This document shows, in pieces, positions 22,318 to 37,726 of a stretch of 38,034 nucleotides of DNA. The stretch covers positions 1-38,034 of the forward strand of contig CADBRR010000014.1 of assembly GCA_902797145.1 (NCBI GenBank), in the 5' to 3' direction. Each line of letters starts with the position of its first letter. Position 1 is the stretch's first letter. Source of the stretch: an uncultured Eubacteriales bacterium (lineage in GTDB: Bacteria; Bacillota; Clostridia; Christensenellales; CAG-138). The notes under the pieces are model-generated. The model did not search any database, was not told where the DNA came from, and worked only from the letters and a program-made list of their open reading frames with translations. The translations under genes and the position numbers were made by a program.

Positions 22318-22339
22318 TTTTCACTCGCTCTCCTTTGCT

Positions 22340-22386
22340 TTAATTAATTTTTAATTAGTTTTAGTATTATTAGGGGGTGCGGATAA
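22340..22386 (-). other. oriC: Basal origin unwinding element (DnaA boxes, GC run, DnaA-trios, AT-rich DUE)
   Basis: Read on the minus strand, the DnaA-box-like TTATCCGCA (22378-22386) is followed by CCCCC (22373-22377) and then AT-rich DNA to dnaN. On the opposite (plus) strand, read 3' to 5' from the G run, the triplets are GAT, TAT, TAT, GAT, TTT, GAT (22373 down to 22356). This is the order of the Bacillus basal unwinding system: boxes, GC cluster, DnaA-trios, unwinding region. The assignment is by pattern, not experiment. Confidence 0.72.
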
Positions 22387-22553
22387 TGTGGAAAAGCTTT
22401 AAAATTCCCCAAAATGGTAACTTTTGGGCTGTTGAATTCGTTTTGGAAAAACTGTTTATAAGTGGTTGAGTTATCAACATAAATCCACATTTCCACTCTA
22501 TCCGCATTTTATCCACTGTGGATTGTTGATTATGTGGATAAAATTGTGGAAAA
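22378..22553. other. oriC: DnaA-box cluster in the dnaA-dnaN gap
   Basis: One perfect box TGTGGATAA (22533-22541). One-mismatch boxes are TGTGGAAAA (22387-22395 and 22545-22553), TGCGGATAA (22378-22386), TTATCAACA (22471-22479) and TTATCCACT (22509-22517). Two weaker ones are near 22481 and 22498. The two boxes at 22378-22395 are directly abutted and point toward the unwinding element. The stretch 22554-22634 next to the dnaA stop is AT-rich without boxes. Confidence 0.85.
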
Positions 22554-22634
22554 CTCATTATTTAGTTTAATCAAGCTTAATATTGCACCTTAAAGATACA
22601 TAATTAAGCTTGAAAAAATATTATATTTAATTGC

Positions 22635-23996
22635 TTATTTCTCATTTATGCGCTTTGTAAGATCTTGAATAGTTGCTTCAAGCTTTACATCTTTCTTCAT
22701 ATCGTTTGTTATTTTTTCCTGCGCATACATAATAGTTGTATGGTCACGACCTCCGAATGCTTCACCTATCTGCGGATATGAACAATCGAGTATCGACCTG
22801 CAAAGATACATGGCAATCTGACGAGGATAAGCTATATCCCTGCTCTTCCTCTTTCCTTTTAAATCATTTACTGTAATTCCATATTGTTCTGCAACCATTT
22901 CCTGAATAGTATCAATAGATGCAACACGTTTTGTTTCGCCATTGAGAATATCCCTCAAAGCAAGTTCTGCAACAGATGTTGTGACAGGCATTTTCGTAAG
23001 GTTTGCATATGCAACTACCCTTGTAAGTGAACCTTCAAGTTCCCTGATATTTGAATTTACCTTTTCTGCGATAAAAAGCAATACATCGTTAGGAACAACA
23101 TAACCTTCGCTTAATGTCTTTTTGCGAAGAATTGCTGTCCTCGTTTCAAAATCAGGCGGCTGAATATCCGTTATAAGACCGCCCTCAAACCTTGATCTCA
23201 ATCTTTCTTCAAGCGTCTGAATTTCCCTCGGAGGTCTATCCGATGAAAGAACTATCTGCTTGTTTGCGCTATGAAGTGCGTTGAATGTGTGGAAAAACTC
23301 TTCCTGCATTCCCTCTTTACCTGTTATAAATTGAATATCGTCTACGAGCAATACATCAACAGTTCTATATTTTGCCCTAAACTGTGCGTTCTTGTTTACT
23401 CTGATAGATTCTACAAGTTCGTTTAGGAATGTTTCGCTTGTAACGTACATAATATTTGCACGAGGATTGTTCTCCTTTATCTTATGCGCTATTGCGTGCA
23501 TAAGATGGGTTTTTCCAAGCCCAACTCCGCCATACATAAAAAGAGGATTGTATGCCTTTGCAGGATTTTCTGCAACTGCGAGCGCAGCAGCGTGTGCAAA
23601 GTGATTTGATCCGCCTATAACAAATGTATCAAATGTGTATTTAGGATTAAGGCTGAGTGATTTAAATGAATCATCGTTCATATAATTATTATCGACCTTA
23701 TCCGCAGATATTTTATCTTCATCAATATTTCTGTATAGTTCTCTTTCAGATGGTTCTATATAAACGATGTCATTGAGTTCGATATCATTGACAGAATTGA
23801 CTATTTCCTTTACTCTCTGCTTGTACATATTTGTCAAATTCTGCTTTGATGTACTATTTTCTGCCTCAAGTATTAATACTCCATTATCTATTGCGACAGG
23901 TTTTATCTGAATAAAATAGTTGTTATATGAAAGCTCCGTTACAGCATCTTTTATGCTATTTAAAGAATTATTCCATATAACCTTTGCAGAAGACAT
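22635..23996 (-). CDS. dnaA: Chromosomal replication initiator DnaA
   Basis: About 453 residues, from the ATG at 23996 with AAGGAG upstream (the frame is open 11 codons further, without an SD). Domain I is at about 1-80 and linker domain II at about 85-115. The AAA+ domain has Walker A Gly-Gly-Val-Gly-Leu-Gly-Lys-Thr-His (156-164), Walker B Leu-Leu-Val-Asp-Asp-Ile-Gln-Phe and the Leu-Arg-Ser-Arg-Phe arginine-finger region. The C-terminal helix-turn-helix has the DnaA signature Gly-Gly-Arg-Asp-His-Thr-Thr-Ile-Met-Tyr-Ala. It binds 9-mer DnaA boxes and melts the origin. Boxes in its own leader (24036-24080) indicate autoregulation. Confidence 0.98.
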   Translation of the reverse strand: MSSAKVIWNNSLNSIKDAVTELSYNNYFIQIKPVAIDNGVLILEAENSTSKQNLTNMYKQRVKEIVNSVNDIELNDIVYIEPSERELYRNIDEDKISADKVDNNYMNDDSFKSLSLNPKYTFDTFVIGGSNHFAHAAALAVAENPAKAYNPLFMYGGVGLGKTHLMHAIAHKIKENNPRANIMYVTSETFLNELVESIRVNKNAQFRAKYRTVDVLLVDDIQFITGKEGMQEEFFHTFNALHSANKQIVLSSDRPPREIQTLEERLRSRFEGGLITDIQPPDFETRTAILRKKTLSEGYVVPNDVLLFIAEKVNSNIRELEGSLTRVVAYANLTKMPVTTSVAELALRDILNGETKRVASIDTIQEMVAEQYGITVNDLKGKRKSRDIAYPRQIAMYLCRSILDCSYPQIGEAFGGRDHTTIMYAQEKITNDMKKDVKLEATIQDLTKRINEK

Positions 23997-24035
23997 ACGC
24001 CTTTTTCTCCTTTCAAAATAATTCCACAAAAAAAG

Positions 24036-24080
24036 TTATTCACATTCTGTTGATAAAATTGTGGATAAATCTGTGAATCA
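24036..24080. other. oriC: DnaA boxes in the dnaA leader
   Basis: Perfect boxes TTATTCACA (24036-24044) and TGTGGATAA (24060-24068). One-mismatch boxes are TGTTGATAA (24048-24056) and TGTGAATCA (24072-24080). They lie between the candidate dnaA promoter and the SD, where DnaA binding could repress its own gene. Confidence 0.85.
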
Positions 24081-24108
24081 TTCACAGCTATATCGTCCAT
24101 AATTTAAA

Positions 24109-24137
24109 ATTATATAATATATTACAGGCAATAGTAA
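24109..24137 (-). promoter_or_regulatory. Candidate dnaA promoter
   Basis: On the minus strand a perfect TATAAT (24109-24114) lies 17 bp downstream of TTACTA (24132-24137), a poor -35. It is about 110 bases upstream of the dnaA start, with the box cluster in the transcribed leader. Confidence 0.45.
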
Positions 24138-24251
24138 TCCCTTTTATAATAACAAATAAACCTTTTAAATACAAGTAAAAACGAAAAAAATAAATAAAAA
24201 AATAATCAAGTGGGGGGAAGTTGTGGAATCGGGTCGAATAAAAACACTATA

Positions 24252-24275
24252 TGTGGATAACATAATTTATCCACA
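24252..24275. other. oriC: Inverted pair of perfect DnaA boxes between dnaA and rpmH
   Basis: TGTGGATAA (24252-24260) and TTATCCACA (24267-24275) face each other across six bases. They sit in the AT-rich dnaA-rpmH gap (23997-24529), about 50 bp upstream of the rpmH -35 element. Between 24081 and 24251 I see only AT-rich DNA and the dnaA promoter. Confidence 0.88.
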
Positions 24276-24327
24276 GCAAAAAAACATCAAAAAGTGAATA
24301 AATGAATACATAAATTTATAAAAAAAC

Positions 24328-24356
24328 TTGACAGAAACATATATTTCTTATATAAT
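24328..24356 (+). promoter_or_regulatory. Consensus sigma-A promoter of rpmH
   Basis: TTGACA (24328-24333), 17 bp, TATAAT (24351-24356): a perfect match. It implies a leader of about 165 nt, which contains a 7-bp hairpin (ACGGATA 24386-24392 with TATCCGT 24406-24412). Confidence 0.9.
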
Positions 24357-24529
24357 ATCAAATGGCAGTATGTTGTAAAACATCTACGGATAATTTAATG
24401 AAAGGTATCCGTTAAATTTTGCAATCTTTTTTAAGTGTTTATCTTATTGTTCCGTTTCAATACAGGGGGAATGATAAACAATTAAAATTAATATTGAATA
24501 TAAAAAATCAGAGAAGAGAGGTGTAAATT

Positions 24530-27718: not shown

Positions 27719-29035
27719 ATGGAATTTCAAGATACTATATTTGCGCTTGCAACACCGGTAGGCGGAGCTGTTGCATTGATAAGAATAAGCGGTGAAAAAA
27801 GCTTAGATGTACTTAAAAAAATATTTACCGGCAGGGTAGAAAACAGGTTTTTATCATATGGTAAAATAATTGATGAAAACGGAGAAACACTCGATGAATG
27901 TATGGCTGTTTATATGAAAAAGCCACATACTTATACGGGCGAAGATACTGTTGAAATATCAATTCATGGCGGAGTTGCTGTTGCACAGTCGGTTTGTGAG
28001 CTTATTTCAAAGTCAGGCGCAGTTCCTGCACAGGCTGGTGAATTTACAAAGCGTGCATTTATGAATGGCAAGCTCGACCTTGTTCAAGCTGAAGCTGTTA
28101 TGGATATTATAAACGCTTCCGCTAAAAAGAGTGCACAATCCGCATTATATCAGCTCGATGGCAAATTGAGCGAAAAGCTCGAAAATATCGAGAATTTGCT
28201 TATTGATGCGCTTTCGGGCATTGATGCTGCGATTGATTATCCCGAAGAGCTTGAAGAGGATACGTTCTCTGCGCTCCCCAATTATATTGATACTTCTTTG
28301 CGCTTTATAGATGAGCTTATTGAAAATGGGCTTAAATCTCGCTGTATAAGGGAAGGTATTAGAGTTTGTATCGCTGGTAGACCTAATGTTGGCAAATCTT
28401 CCTTGCTAAATTCTATAATAGGAAGTCAGCGTGCCATTGTAACGAATATCGAGGGCACAACAAGGGATATAATCGAGGAAAGCATCAATATAAATTCTGT
28501 TCCTGTAAGGATTGTCGATACGGCAGGAATAAGAAAAACTGACGATATTATTGAAAATATAGGCATTGAAAAATCATATGAAGCGATTGAAAATTCGGAT
28601 ATAGTTTTATTAGCATTTGATGCGTCTGAGAAGCTTACAGATTATGATTTTGAGCTTTTGAATAAAACAAAGGATAAAAAACGAATTGCTGTTCTATGTA
28701 AGTCTGATTTAGATACCGTTATTTCGAAAGATGATTTCGATTTTGATAGCGTTTTGATAAGTTCAATTACTTATGATGGAATTGATGAGCTAAAAAATCT
28801 CATTGTAAAAAGCGTTGTTCCGTCAGATGAAAATGCAGTCATTACGAACACAAGGCATATTGACTTGCTTTCAAAAGCAAAACAAAACCTTATTAGTGCT
28901 AAAACGACAAGTGAAATCGATTGTATTGCAACCGATATTCGCTCCGCACTCGAAAACTTATCCACAATTACTGGAAAATATGTGGATAATTCAGTCATTG
29001 ACAGGATTTTTGAACGCTTTTGTGTCGGAAAATAA
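27719..29035 (+). CDS. mnmE: tRNA uridine-34 modification GTPase MnmE (TrmE)
   Basis: A 438-residue GTPase that pairs with MnmG for U34 modification. The N-terminal formyl-THF-binding domain has Gly-Gly-Ala-Val-Ala-Leu-Ile-Arg-Ile-Ser-Gly (15-25). The G domain carries G1 Gly-Arg-Pro-Asn-Val-Gly-Lys-Ser-Ser (about 220-228), G2 Gly-Thr-Thr-Arg-Asp, G3 Asp-Thr-Ala-Gly-Ile and a G4-type Cys-Lys-Ser-Asp. It ends Phe-Cys-Val-Gly-Lys with the conserved Cys435. Slightly shorter than the usual 450-460. AGGA precedes the ATG. Its 3' end contains two perfect DnaA boxes. Confidence 0.97.
   Translation: MEFQDTIFALATPVGGAVALIRISGEKSLDVLKKIFTGRVENRFLSYGKIIDENGETLDECMAVYMKKPHTYTGEDTVEISIHGGVAVAQSVCELISKSGAVPAQAGEFTKRAFMNGKLDLVQAEAVMDIINASAKKSAQSALYQLDGKLSEKLENIENLLIDALSGIDAAIDYPEELEEDTFSALPNYIDTSLRFIDELIENGLKSRCIREGIRVCIAGRPNVGKSSLLNSIIGSQRAIVTNIEGTTRDIIEESININSVPVRIVDTAGIRKTDDIIENIGIEKSYEAIENSDIVLLAFDASEKLTDYDFELLNKTKDKKRIAVLCKSDLDTVISKDDFDFDSVLISSITYDGIDELKNLIVKSVVPSDENAVITNTRHIDLLSKAKQNLISAKTTSEIDCIATDIRSALENLSTITGKYVDNSVIDRIFERFCVGK
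28958..28989. other. Two perfect DnaA boxes in the 3' end of mnmE
   Basis: TTATCCACA (28958-28966) and TGTGGATAA (28981-28989) face each other across 14 bases within coding DNA, about 5 kb from dnaA. Coding as Leu-Ser-Thr and Tyr-Val-Asp-Asn, both fit an ordinary MnmE tail, so they may be coincidental. Confidence 0.6.
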
Positions 29036-34026: not shown

Positions 34027-35256
34027 TTATTTCCCTTTGAAAACGTTTTTTATAACAGTTGAAAACTTGGGCGGATTGCCATACATAAGAACGCCTGCAC
34101 GATAAATCCTTGCCGAAAGAACGCCTATTGCGAACGCTGTAAGAATAAGTATAACGATAGAAATAATTATTTCATAAAGCGGAACTGAGGTCATAGCTAT
34201 CCTTGTAAACATCGCCATCGGAGATGTAAGCGGAATAAATGAACATATTTTCATAAGAAGATTATCAGAATTTCCGCTGCCGAGCGAGAACATTACAACA
34301 AAGAACATTATAATGAACATAATCTGAACAGGCATAACCTGCGTATTGACATCTTCAAGCTTCGATACCGTTGAACCCATTGCGCCATAAAGAAAAGCGT
34401 AAATAAGGAAACCAAGTATAAAGAATATAAGCATATAAATGAACAAGTCAAATGGCATATCGAATATTGAATTTATTATTTCATCATCTGCCCAATATGA
34501 TTTGTTTATGTTGAAGAACAATAGCGCAGCGCCGAATATAGCAACAAGCTGAACAAAACCTGCGATACAAGCTGCAATTACTTTTCCGAACATCATACTT
34601 ACTGGTTTTGCGCTTGTTATAAGAAGCTCCATTGCCCTTGAACTCTTTTCTGTTGCAACGCTCATTGTTACCATTTGTCCATACATAAGTATTACAATAT
34701 AAAGCGCAAAAATCATAATGTATGTGTAAAAGAAATTGTCCCTCTGGTTCTTGCCCGACGAAACTGTTTCTATTTCAGGCTCATATGTTAAGATGTTGAG
34801 CGATTCTTCTTTTGTAAGTCCGCTTTCGCTGAGTTTATCAAACCTGAACGATTCACTAATAAGTTCGCTTGCTAAAGCTATGTTATTATCGTACATTGAA
34901 ATGTTGTTTACGATATAACTGCATATAGAATAGCCTGAAAATACAAAACCGCATTCAGCTTCGTCATTGGCTATTTTTTTGCTCATACTCTCAACGCTTT
35001 CATCTGAAAATACTACATTGTAGTTTGAAAATGTATCAGAAATAGATTCCATAACGCTTGATGGAATGTCGCCTGCAACGAGCATTATCGGGAGATTTTC
35101 CGTCGGTTCTTCCTCTTCGGGGATTACATCTACAAATCGAGGAAAGAACATTAAAATTGCAATTATTACAACAAGGAATATCGTTATTCCTACAAAAACC
35201 TTGTTTGAAAAATAGCTTTTTAATTCAAAGTTGAATATTGTACCGAACTGCTTCAT
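34027..35256 (-). CDS. ABC-2 type exporter permease (NatB-like)
   Basis: A 409-residue membrane protein. A first helix (about 22-40) is followed by a large outside domain (about 45-170) and then five helices, beginning with Tyr-Ile-Met-Ile-Phe-Ala-Leu-Tyr-Ile-Val. This is the architecture of the NatB/ABC-2 family, in which the region Glu-Lys-Ser-Ser-Arg-Ala-Met-Glu-Leu-Leu-Ile-Thr-Ser is characteristic. NatAB exports sodium or drugs in Bacillus; substrate here is unknown. Its ATG overlaps the ATPase stop as ATGA, giving translational coupling to the ATPase gene. Confidence 0.92.
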   Translation of the reverse strand: MKQFGTIFNFELKSYFSNKVFVGITIFLVVIIAILMFFPRFVDVIPEEEEPTENLPIMLVAGDIPSSVMESISDTFSNYNVVFSDESVESMSKKIANDEAECGFVFSGYSICSYIVNNISMYDNNIALASELISESFRFDKLSESGLTKEESLNILTYEPEIETVSSGKNQRDNFFYTYIMIFALYIVILMYGQMVTMSVATEKSSRAMELLITSAKPVSMMFGKVIAACIAGFVQLVAIFGAALLFFNINKSYWADDEIINSIFDMPFDLFIYMLIFFILGFLIYAFLYGAMGSTVSKLEDVNTQVMPVQIMFIIMFFVVMFSLGSGNSDNLLMKICSFIPLTSPMAMFTRIAMTSVPLYEIIISIVILILTAFAIGVLSARIYRAGVLMYGNPPKFSTVIKNVFKGK

Positions 35257-36140
35257 TTCCTTACCTCCGTATATTCAACAAAAATATCATTGAGTGACGG
35301 TTCATATACCTTGATTTCATCTATATCATAACTTGATGATAGCTTTTTCATAACTTCTTTTTTGTCGGATTCATTTTCAAGGCTTATCATGATTTCATCG
35401 TTCTTCAAACGCTGACTTGATTTAAACTCTTTCATTATATCCTCAAATTGCGTTGATGATACTACAAGCTTATTTCGTGGATAACTCCTCTTTATTTCGT
35501 GAAGATTTCCTGTTATAGCAACGTTTCCGCTGTTTATTATAGCTATGTTGCTGCAAAACTCCTCTATGTAGTTCATCTGATGACTTGAAAAAAGAACTAT
35601 TTTCCCTTTTTGTATCTCTTCTTTTACTACATCCTTTAATAGCATTGCATTGACGGGATCAAGGCCCGAAAACGGTTCGTCAAGCACGATTATTTCAGGA
35701 TCGTGCGCAAGCGCAGTTATAAGCTGCATTTTCTGCTGATTTCCTTTTGAAAGCGTGTCAAGCCTCTTGTTCCTATACTGCATCATATCAAGCCTTTCGA
35801 GCCATTTATCGACTGATTTTTCAGCATCTAATTTATTCATTCCTTTAAGCTGAGCAAAGTATATTAGCTGGTCAACTATCTTCTTTTTAGGATAAAGTCC
35901 CCTCTCTTCAGGAAGATAACCAAGCTTAATATTATTGTAATCTATTTTGTTGCCATCGAGCAGAACTTCCCCGCTATCCTGCGCAAAAACACCCATAAGT
36001 ATCCTTATGGTTGTTGTTTTGCCTGCACCGTTTCTGCCTAAAAGTCCGAACGCTTCTCCACTCTCGCACGAAAATGTTATGTCGTTTAAAACGTGCTTTT
36101 CTCCGAAGCTCTTGTTTATATTTCTGAGTTCAAGCTTCAT
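35253..36140 (-). CDS. ABC transporter ATP-binding protein (NatA-like)
   Basis: About 295 residues, from the ATG at 36140 with AAAGGGG eight bases upstream (the open frame reaches 36167). Walker A is Gly-Arg-Asn-Gly-Ala-Gly-Lys-Thr (35-42). The Q-loop region is Leu-Pro-Glu-Glu-Arg-Gly-Leu-Tyr-Pro. The signature is Leu-Ser-Lys-Gly-Asn-Gln-Gln-Lys, Walker B Ile-Val-Leu-Asp-Glu-Pro, and the switch Ser-Ser-His-Gln-Met. The Leu-Ser-Lys-Gly-Asn-Gln-Gln form and C-terminal Asp-Ile-Phe-Val-Glu-Tyr match NatA. It powers the adjoining ABC-2 permease. Its promoter (36175-36203) lies beside a DnaA-box cluster. Confidence 0.94.
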   Translation of the reverse strand: MKLELRNINKSFGEKHVLNDITFSCESGEAFGLLGRNGAGKTTTIRILMGVFAQDSGEVLLDGNKIDYNNIKLGYLPEERGLYPKKKIVDQLIYFAQLKGMNKLDAEKSVDKWLERLDMMQYRNKRLDTLSKGNQQKMQLITALAHDPEIIVLDEPFSGLDPVNAMLLKDVVKEEIQKGKIVLFSSHQMNYIEEFCSNIAIINSGNVAITGNLHEIKRSYPRNKLVVSSTQFEDIMKEFKSSQRLKNDEIMISLENESDKKEVMKKLSSSYDIDEIKVYEPSLNDIFVEYTEVRK

Positions 36141-36174
36141 ATTGTTTTCCCCTTTATAATAATTCATTGGTTAC

Positions 36175-36203
36175 ATTTTAATGCAATGTATTCACTTTGT
36201 CAA
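36175..36203 (-). promoter_or_regulatory. Sigma-A promoter of the ABC exporter operon
   Basis: On the minus strand TTGACA (36198-36203), 17 bp, TAAAAT (36175-36180), about 35 bases upstream of the ATPase start at 36140. Confidence 0.75.
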
Positions 36204-36221
36204 CATATGTACGGTTTATAA

Positions 36222-36350
36222 AGTGGATAACTCTGTGGATTTATGTGAATAACTTGTCCTATCATATATTTTTCCCTAAAAATATTAAAAATTCGATGTG
36301 GGGATATGTGGGAAAAGTTATTCACAAAGTTATCAACAGGTTGTGCATAA
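36222..36350. other. DnaA-box cluster about 12 kb from dnaA
   Basis: Three perfect TTATNCACA-type boxes: TGTGAATAA (36244-36252), TTATTCACA (36318-36326), TGTGCATAA (36342-36350). One-mismatch boxes are AGTGGATAA (36222-36230) and TTATCAACA (36330-36338). A two-mismatch TGTGGATTT is at 36234. All lie in the 296-bp gap between the ABC ATPase and M14 genes. The gap has no other recognised element apart from the ABC promoter. Confidence 0.75.
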
Positions 36351-36436
36351 CTTTATGTTCATTCGATAAAATATTGGTTATAAAACAAGATTTTACATCA
36401 TAAATTGTAAAAATAAATCCAATGGGGGAATTTTTT

Positions 36437-37726
36437 ATGTATAATTTTAAAACCTTGAAATATTCAGATACAGGCGTCGATGTGGAATACTTGCAGCTCG
36501 CTCTTGAAAGGGCAGGTTTTTCCGCAGGAAATATCGACGGAATTTTCGGAATAAAAACGCTTAATTCCGTTAGACGATTCCAAAGCGCAAACGGACTTAA
36601 AATTGATGGATTCGTTGGACCTATAACATGGAATGCGCTCGAAAAATACTTGACAGGTTATGTCGTGCATACCATAAAACCCGGAGATACTATTTATCTT
36701 TTAGCATCGAAATACTCAACGACTGTATCAGCTATCCGTACAGCTAATCCTTACGCACAGCCTTACAACCTCCAAGTAGGCGATACGCTTATAATTCCGC
36801 TTAATTTTGATGTCGTGCCGACAAATGTTAGCTATACGAGCGTCCTTTCAGAAATGATAATTGACGGACTTACAAGACGCTATCCGTTCATTATGAATGA
36901 AGTTATCGGAAAAAGCGTTATGGAAAATAATTTGAATGTTCTTTCAATGGGCAACGGTGAAAAAGAGGTTTTCTATAATGCTTCTCACCATGCAAATGAA
37001 TGGATAACAACACCTGTTCTCTTCAAGTTTGCAGAAGAATTTGCTTTTGCAGCAGTAAATGGTGAAAGTATTTTAGGTCAGGATGCACAGTCGCTTTTCA
37101 ACGATGTAAAACTCTATATAGCACCACTTGTTAATCCTGACGGAGTAAATCTTGTAAATAATTTTATTAGCACATCATCACCTTTTTATACACGTGCAAG
37201 GCGAATTTCAATGGCATTTGATGAAATTCCTTTTCCGAGCGGCTGGAAAGCAAATATTGCAGGAACTGATTTAAATCTTAATTATCCTGCCGATTGGGAT
37301 ATAGCAAAGCAGATAAAGTATGCACAGGGGTTTGATATGCCTGCGCCGAGAGATTTCGTTGGCGAAGCTCCGCTTTCTGCGCCTGAAAGCAGGGCGGTAT
37401 ACGATTTTACAAAAGCGCATAATTTTCTTTTGACGCTTTCATATCATACGCAGGGCGAAGTTATTTATTGGAAGTTCAAGAATATCGAGGTCGAAGGAGC
37501 GTATGAAATAGCGACCGAGTTTGCAAAGGTAAGCGGCTATTCGCTCGAACTAGTTCCCGATGAATCCGCAAATGCTGGTTATAAAGACTGGTTTATTCTC
37601 GAATATCAGCGCCCCGGTTATACTATCGAATGCGGAAAAGGTGTAAATCCATTGCCGATTTCGCAATTTGATGGAATTTATAGGGATAATATTGGTATCC
37701 TTGTTATTGGAATAATCAGAAGTTAG
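36437..37726 (+). CDS. Peptidoglycan peptidase: PG-binding, LysM and M14 carboxypeptidase domains
   Basis: About 429 residues, from the ATG at 36437 (GGGGGA seven bases upstream; the earlier ATG at 36422 is part of that SD). Residues about 5-70 are a PG_binding_1 domain (Asp-Gly-Ile-Phe-Gly-x-Lys-Thr, Val-Gly-Pro-Ile-Thr-Trp). Residues about 76-121 are a LysM domain (His-Thr-Ile-Lys-Pro-Gly-Asp-Thr-Ile). The M14 domain has zinc ligands His185-x-x-Glu188 and His337, and catalytic Glu398. The order matches gamma-D-glutamyl-meso-diaminopimelate peptidase I of spore-formers, which trims cell-wall peptides. No signal peptide is visible, so it is made in the cytoplasm, possibly of the forespore. 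Upstream is the DnaA-box cluster. Confidence 0.93.
   Translation: MYNFKTLKYSDTGVDVEYLQLALERAGFSAGNIDGIFGIKTLNSVRRFQSANGLKIDGFVGPITWNALEKYLTGYVVHTIKPGDTIYLLASKYSTTVSAIRTANPYAQPYNLQVGDTLIIPLNFDVVPTNVSYTSVLSEMIIDGLTRRYPFIMNEVIGKSVMENNLNVLSMGNGEKEVFYNASHHANEWITTPVLFKFAEEFAFAAVNGESILGQDAQSLFNDVKLYIAPLVNPDGVNLVNNFISTSSPFYTRARRISMAFDEIPFPSGWKANIAGTDLNLNYPADWDIAKQIKYAQGFDMPAPRDFVGEAPLSAPESRAVYDFTKAHNFLLTLSYHTQGEVIYWKFKNIEVEGAYEIATEFAKVSGYSLELVPDESANAGYKDWFILEYQRPGYTIECGKGVNPLPISQFDGIYRDNIGILVIGIIRS

Follow-up and report, generated by a model that had tools for sequence, protein, structure and literature searches.

A cluster of DnaA boxes outside oriC in a member of the Christensenellales: a probable DnaA-binding site with a possible role at two divergent genes

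Five DnaA boxes lie close together in an intergenic region outside oriC, 12.2 kb from the start of dnaA. What is such a cluster for: does bound DnaA control the neighboring genes, is DnaA merely held there, or do the boxes serve no purpose at all? The window, i.e., the whole stretch of 38,034 nucleotides analyzed here, had been given a sequence-only reading, which described three perfect and two one-mismatch boxes in both orientations within about 130 bp, about 12 kb from oriC and inside a divergent gap of 296 bp. This description holds in all of these points, the cluster spanning 129 bp (36222-36350) with boxes on both strands:

36141..36436, no strand: divergent intergenic region, 296 bp between start codons set by ribosome-binding sites, containing the cluster and both predicted promoters
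36222..36230, minus strand: DnaA box with one mismatch, TTATCCACT, 19 bp upstream of the -35 hexamer of the ABC operon
36244..36252, minus strand: perfect DnaA box, TTATTCACA (consensus TTATNCACA), 22 bp, or two helical turns, from the box at 36222
36318..36326, plus strand: perfect DnaA box, TTATTCACA, first half of a tandem double box with a 3-bp spacer
36330..36338, plus strand: DnaA box with one mismatch, TTATCAACA, completing the tandem double box
36342..36350, minus strand: perfect DnaA box, TTATGCACA, convergent with the box at 36318 at an offset of 24 bp

The borders of the gap follow from the ribosome-binding sites, which place the start of the ABC exporter gene at ATG 36140 (AAAGGGGAAA) and that of the M14 peptidase gene at ATG 36437 (GGGGGA); the listed ORF starts at 36167 and 36422, respectively, are upstream alternatives.

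DnaA-box clusters (DBCs) have been defined as at least three DnaA boxes with up to one mismatch and a mean spacing below 100 bp (PMC7561715), and the five boxes in the gap fall within this definition. Like the B. subtilis DBCs at sda/yqeG, ywlC, ywcI/vpr, yydA, trmE/jag and gcp/ydiF, the window cluster is a group of several TTATNCACA boxes that share an intergenic region outside oriC, and the B. subtilis clusters, too, are found mostly at promoters and in some cases near the origin (PMC4447404; PMC5295017). However, none of them flanks an ABC exporter/M14 pair, and the window cluster is predicted from sequence. Because its neighbors differ, it would be of the same kind as the B. subtilis DBCs, but not an ortholog of any of them; the only cluster of this genome that shares a site with B. 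subtilis is the one on contig C81, 3′ of gcp/tsaD.

Could these boxes have come together by chance in AT-rich DNA? The A+T content of the gap (73%) would favor this, but it is rejected on simulation and genome count, its probability being next to nothing. The window holds 11 perfect boxes where 2.15 are expected from dinucleotide shuffles; they fall in oriC and near 28.96 and 36.2-36.35 kb, with a single box at 15.56 kb. Perfect boxes had been expected once in several kilobases, whereas in this genome they are rarer than that: the whole draft (1.96 Mb in 162 contigs) contains 103, one per 19 kb. At least three perfect boxes within about 250 bp occur in oriC, in the window gap and on contig C81 alone, among the 100 of 103 sites listed. 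In 254-bp intergenic sequences simulated with Markov models of order 1-3 at a G+C content of 31%, three perfect boxes were obtained in 0 of 20,000 draws for each order, and a triplet as tight as the one in the window is expected 0.0016 times per genome.

The boxes near 28.96 kb form a separate pair (28958-28989): two perfect convergent boxes, at 28958 and 28981, near the 3′ end of mnmE and 5 kb from dnaA. A cluster resembling the one at jag/mnmE in B. subtilis was considered and rejected, the boxes at the mnmE 3′ end having no counterpart in relatives of the family.

More telling than the number of boxes is their arrangement, for which the origin of the same genome provides a reference:

22318..24520, no strand: bipartite oriC, comprising the dnaA-dnaN gap (22378-22553) and the dnaA-rpmH gap (24036-24301)

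The core triplet of the window (36318/36330/36342) consists of a tandem pair 12 bp apart, i.e., with a spacer of 3 bp, plus a box at 24 bp in convergent orientation. The same 12-12 layout is found in oriC1 at 24036/24048/24060: the tandem spacing of 12 bp matches that of 24036/24048, and the 24-bp offset is identical to that of 24036/24060. The middle box of oriC1 at 24048 is TTATCAACA as well, although on the opposite strand compared to 36330 in the window. Moreover, both spacings belong to a grammar that extends throughout the order. In 61 genomes, tandem and convergent pairs of perfect boxes are far more abundant than in a reversed-pattern control, which is nearly empty, and divergent pairs hardly exist; the offsets peak at 9, 12 and 21 bp for tandem and at 12, 23-24 and 35 bp for convergent pairs. 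In E. coli, DnaA binds preferentially to boxes separated by 2-3 bp; such double boxes, the best predictor of DnaA binding in vivo, predicted 15 of 16 ChIP-seq regions (PMC11317965). The pair 36318-36326 and 36330-36338 is a double box of exactly this type. The match to the spacing grammar is the best evidence in this analysis that DnaA would bind at the window cluster. Given that the triplet follows the pair-spacing rule of the order and matches the genome's own oriC1, the cluster is almost certainly, to judge from its sequence, a DnaA-binding site of the B. subtilis DBC kind. This part of the sequence-only reading is well supported: the boxes are non-random, they obey the pair spacing, and comparable clusters outside oriC are widespread in the order.

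The likeness to other known systems is more limited. With the E. coli double boxes at purH, polA and mutH/DARS2, the window cluster shares the two boxes 3 bp apart at 36318/36330 (PMC11317965), but here they are embedded in a larger cluster of mixed orientation, in another host and beside other genes. E. coli datA, DARS1 and DARS2, which are marked by IHF or Fis sites and by acting on DnaA-ATP hydrolysis or nucleotide exchange, resemble it, on the present evidence, only in being non-coding DnaA-box clusters away from oriC, in an unrelated sequence context. The clostridial bipartite oriC (oriC1/oriC2, e.g., in C. difficile) has the same box type, and the genome's own oriC1 also the box-12-box-12-box spacing, whereas the window cluster lacks the dnaA/dnaN context and no DnaA-trio was seen there. 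As to the origin region itself, the listed dnaA ORF (22638-24029) begins at TTG; a start at ATG 23996, which follows AAAGGAGAAAAAGG, is more likely and would slightly lengthen the dnaA-rpmH gap.

A second replication origin or a site of DnaA-dependent unwinding was considered as well. Boxes in both orientations lie beside AT-rich DNA that is as unstable as the dnaA-dnaN gap (98.6 percentile for the window gap vs. 97.8). However, a normal bipartite oriC is located only 12 kb away, no gene for an initiator or loader is present, and the gap contains no DnaA-trio-like run beside the boxes, though the same search finds none in the genome's own oriC2 either. A secondary origin is judged very unlikely.

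If DnaA binds in this gap, it would do so in front of two genes:

35253..36140, minus strand: ABC exporter ATPase (PF00005, DrrA1-3_C), from domain matches, followed by an ABC-2 permease
34027-35256: ABC-2 permease, after the ABC ATPase in the operon
36437..37726, plus strand: protein with PG_binding_1, LysM and Peptidase_M14 domains, from domain matches
36175..36203, minus strand: sigma-A-like promoter of the ABC operon, TTGACA, 17 bp, TAAAAT, near-consensus with 11 of 12 positions matching
36399..36406, plus strand: candidate mother-cell-type (sigma-E/K-like) -10 element of the M14 gene, CATAAATT, located 38 nt upstream of the ATG and accompanied by a weak -35

The predicted start site of the ABC operon lies near 36168, and the boxes at 36222 and 36244 are centered upstream of it, at distances of about 58 and 80 bp; the triplet 36318/36330/36342 is located about 60-90 bp upstream of the predicted M14 start. 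Since each predicted start site thus has boxes about 58-92 bp on its upstream side, the proposal of the sequence-only reading that the two genes are under DnaA control is plausible, the distance to each predicted promoter being one that would be typical of a regulator.

For the M14 gene, the promoter element is suggestive of its expression. A CATANANT element is present 15-75 nt before the start in 23 of 73 non-redundant M14 relatives, compared to 0 and 3 in two control stretches, and resembles the -10 of the mother-cell sigma factors (sigma-E/K). This CATAnAnT element suggests expression of the PG-binding/LysM/M14 family in the mother cell during sporulation, and the domains together with the promoter motif of the relatives point to a sporulation role for the M14 protein. 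Examples of M14 genes with the element conserved 15-75 nt on their 5′ side are L461, L466 and L468.

The sequence-only reading had named, as evidence against itself, box positions that are not conserved in close relatives with the same neighbors; the comparisons with other genera bear this out by half. The M14 gene is common in other genera, but upstream of it, in 79 relatives of other genera (54.6 kb), a single perfect box was found, which is the background level; conservation of the cluster with the M14 gene is rejected for these 79. Among the M14 relatives in other genera, none was found to have a divergent ABC gene beside it, and no relative keeps both neighbors. The ABC gene has no close ortholog in the family, its best relative being 45% identical and from another family, and conservation of the cluster with this gene is rejected as well. 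With boxes at background upstream of the M14 relatives, no divergent ABC gene and the nearest ABC relative in another family, the window cluster is, on these comparisons, lineage-specific at its place. This would be expected if it were a neutral leftover, for example part of an oriC-like array that was duplicated or has decayed and now has no function: no relative examined has boxes conserved at this place, and the triplet copies the oriC1 spacing exactly. However, inspection reveals no similarity to oriC beyond the boxes, and it is unlikely that, without selection, three perfect boxes would have stayed intact in non-coding DNA so rich in A+T, which makes a leftover improbable.

The same genome contains two other intergenic clusters outside oriC, one 5′ of a CwlD-like amidase gene and one 5′ of a SipL-type gene. 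The first (C81; L141:3475-3673) comprises five perfect and about five one-mismatch boxes within 200 bp between tsaD/gcp and the CwlD-like Amidase_3 gene; the second (C42; L142:2423-2500) lies in the gap that follows the 3′ end of spo0A and precedes the 5′ end of a SipL-domain gene, and is conserved in many genera. The genes are called cwlD and sipL on the basis of their domain matches (Amidase_3 and SipL, respectively) and their position. Across the 30 best-matching loci for each gene, the window's own genome included, perfect boxes number 27 in 20.4 kb upstream of cwlD, compared to 0 in the coding sequence (20.5 kb) and 1 downstream (20.9 kb). Downstream of spo0A, 28 occur in 20.6 kb, as opposed to 0 in the coding sequence (23.9 kb) and 4 upstream (21.0 kb). 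By these box rates, two DnaA-box cluster positions are conserved in the order, 5′ of cwlD and in the spo0A-sipL gap, and this pattern is a stronger result than the window cluster itself. The clusters remain 5′ of cwlD or of the SipL-type gene in genomes in which tsaD or spo0A is located elsewhere, and this persistence when the other neighbor changes points to control of the gene. As a strong DnaA region is found 3′ of gcp in B. subtilis, too (PMC4447404), the C81 site may be ancient.

Both positions concern genes of sporulation, and the host is a spore-forming bacterium. In B. subtilis, DnaA-activated sda halts sporulation while replication is active. Sda (PF08970) was found in 0 of 61 genomes of the order by a search that recovers the B. 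subtilis protein as a positive control. A direct link from DnaA to sporulation genes in this order is a reasonable hypothesis, because clusters are kept at cwlD and spo0A/sipL while sda is absent from the 61 genomes. The window cluster resembles the conserved ones in lying 5′ of a sporulation-type wall hydrolase gene, yet it is lineage-specific. Tentatively, and with more doubt than confidence, the three may be combined: in an order without Sda, DnaA might regulate sporulation genes directly through the cwlD and spo0A-sipL clusters, and the window cluster might be a lineage-specific third target that brings a mother-cell-type wall peptidase under DnaA. In the literature covered, which is incomplete, nothing was found that links DnaA boxes to cwlD, sipL or the region downstream of spo0A in Clostridia, and a replication-sporulation link through DnaA-box clusters is little explored. 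If DnaA binds at the spo0A/sipL and cwlD clusters, a second and more direct link between replication and sporulation would become testable in gut Clostridia, and the window cluster would illustrate the recruitment of new genes to it.

For the window cluster itself, promoter control is preferred on account of position, spacing and the analogy with the two conserved clusters; the ABC promoter, with its 11 of 12 matches, and the mother-cell-type -10 conserved in the M14 family are further points for it. In this explanation, which we hold with roughly even confidence, the cluster is a real DnaA-binding site outside oriC at which bound DnaA regulates one or both divergent genes and is also sequestered to some extent near the origin. 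DnaA would load first on the double box 36318-36338 and its convergent partner 36342-36350, and then cooperatively occupy the two left boxes at 36222 and 36244. Once bound, DnaA would regulate the transcription of one or both genes, so that a lineage-specific exporter and a sporulation-type wall peptidase would be coupled to the state of DnaA, while some DnaA would be withheld close to the origin. Regulation is the most likely role of bound DnaA because the left pair lies about 58-80 bp upstream of the ABC start and the right triplet lies at a similar distance, about 60-90 bp, from that of M14. Observed are the boxes as such, that they are non-random, how they are spaced and where they stand with respect to the predicted promoters; that DnaA occupies them, in which direction it regulates and how replication timing might be affected is inferred. 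In B. subtilis, most high-affinity DnaA regions outside oriC lie upstream of genes, several of which are activated or repressed by DnaA (PMC4447404).

The main rival to promoter control is pure titration, to which we give appreciably less weight: the site would bind DnaA, be duplicated early, since it is close to the origin, and lower free DnaA after initiation, and the flanking genes would be incidental. Indeed, deletion of six DnaA-box clusters in B. subtilis leads to earlier initiation (PMC5295017). Near-origin clusters are, moreover, over-represented. Counting perfect boxes with gaps of up to 30 bp, and with distances to dnaA known within contigs only, as many of the genomes are draft metagenome assemblies, 70 pair clusters outside oriC are obtained, of which 10 are located at most 20 kb from dnaA, where 1.4 would be expected; 8 vs. 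1.4 (P about 9e-5) are counted after removing one of two genomes of the same genus, and 6 are left once the genome of the window is excluded, too. This is a genuine excess, albeit a modest one. One of these (G013) amounts to nothing more than the conserved spo0A cluster, and many relatives have no cluster near oriC, both of which weaken titration, as do the small number of boxes, five being few compared with oriC itself, and their tight placement upstream of two predicted promoters. Other near-origin clusters are found near MurA, short-chain dehydrogenase or ParB genes, and the clusters stand beside different genes in different genera. This speaks for titration and, together with a cluster that is conserved with neither of its neighbors, against promoter control, since near-dnaA clusters beside unrelated genes fit titration equally. 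If the clusters do nothing but titrate, the DnaA sinks outside oriC known from Bacillus would extend through the Clostridia at conserved places. The first interpretation, a titration or regulatory locus, is partly supported overall.

Two species of one genus, G010 (L269) and G031 (L267), carry 4-5 perfect boxes beside a MurA-type gene about 10-11.5 kb downstream of dnaA, and a cluster in G005 (L388) is located 3′ of a MurA-type gene as well.
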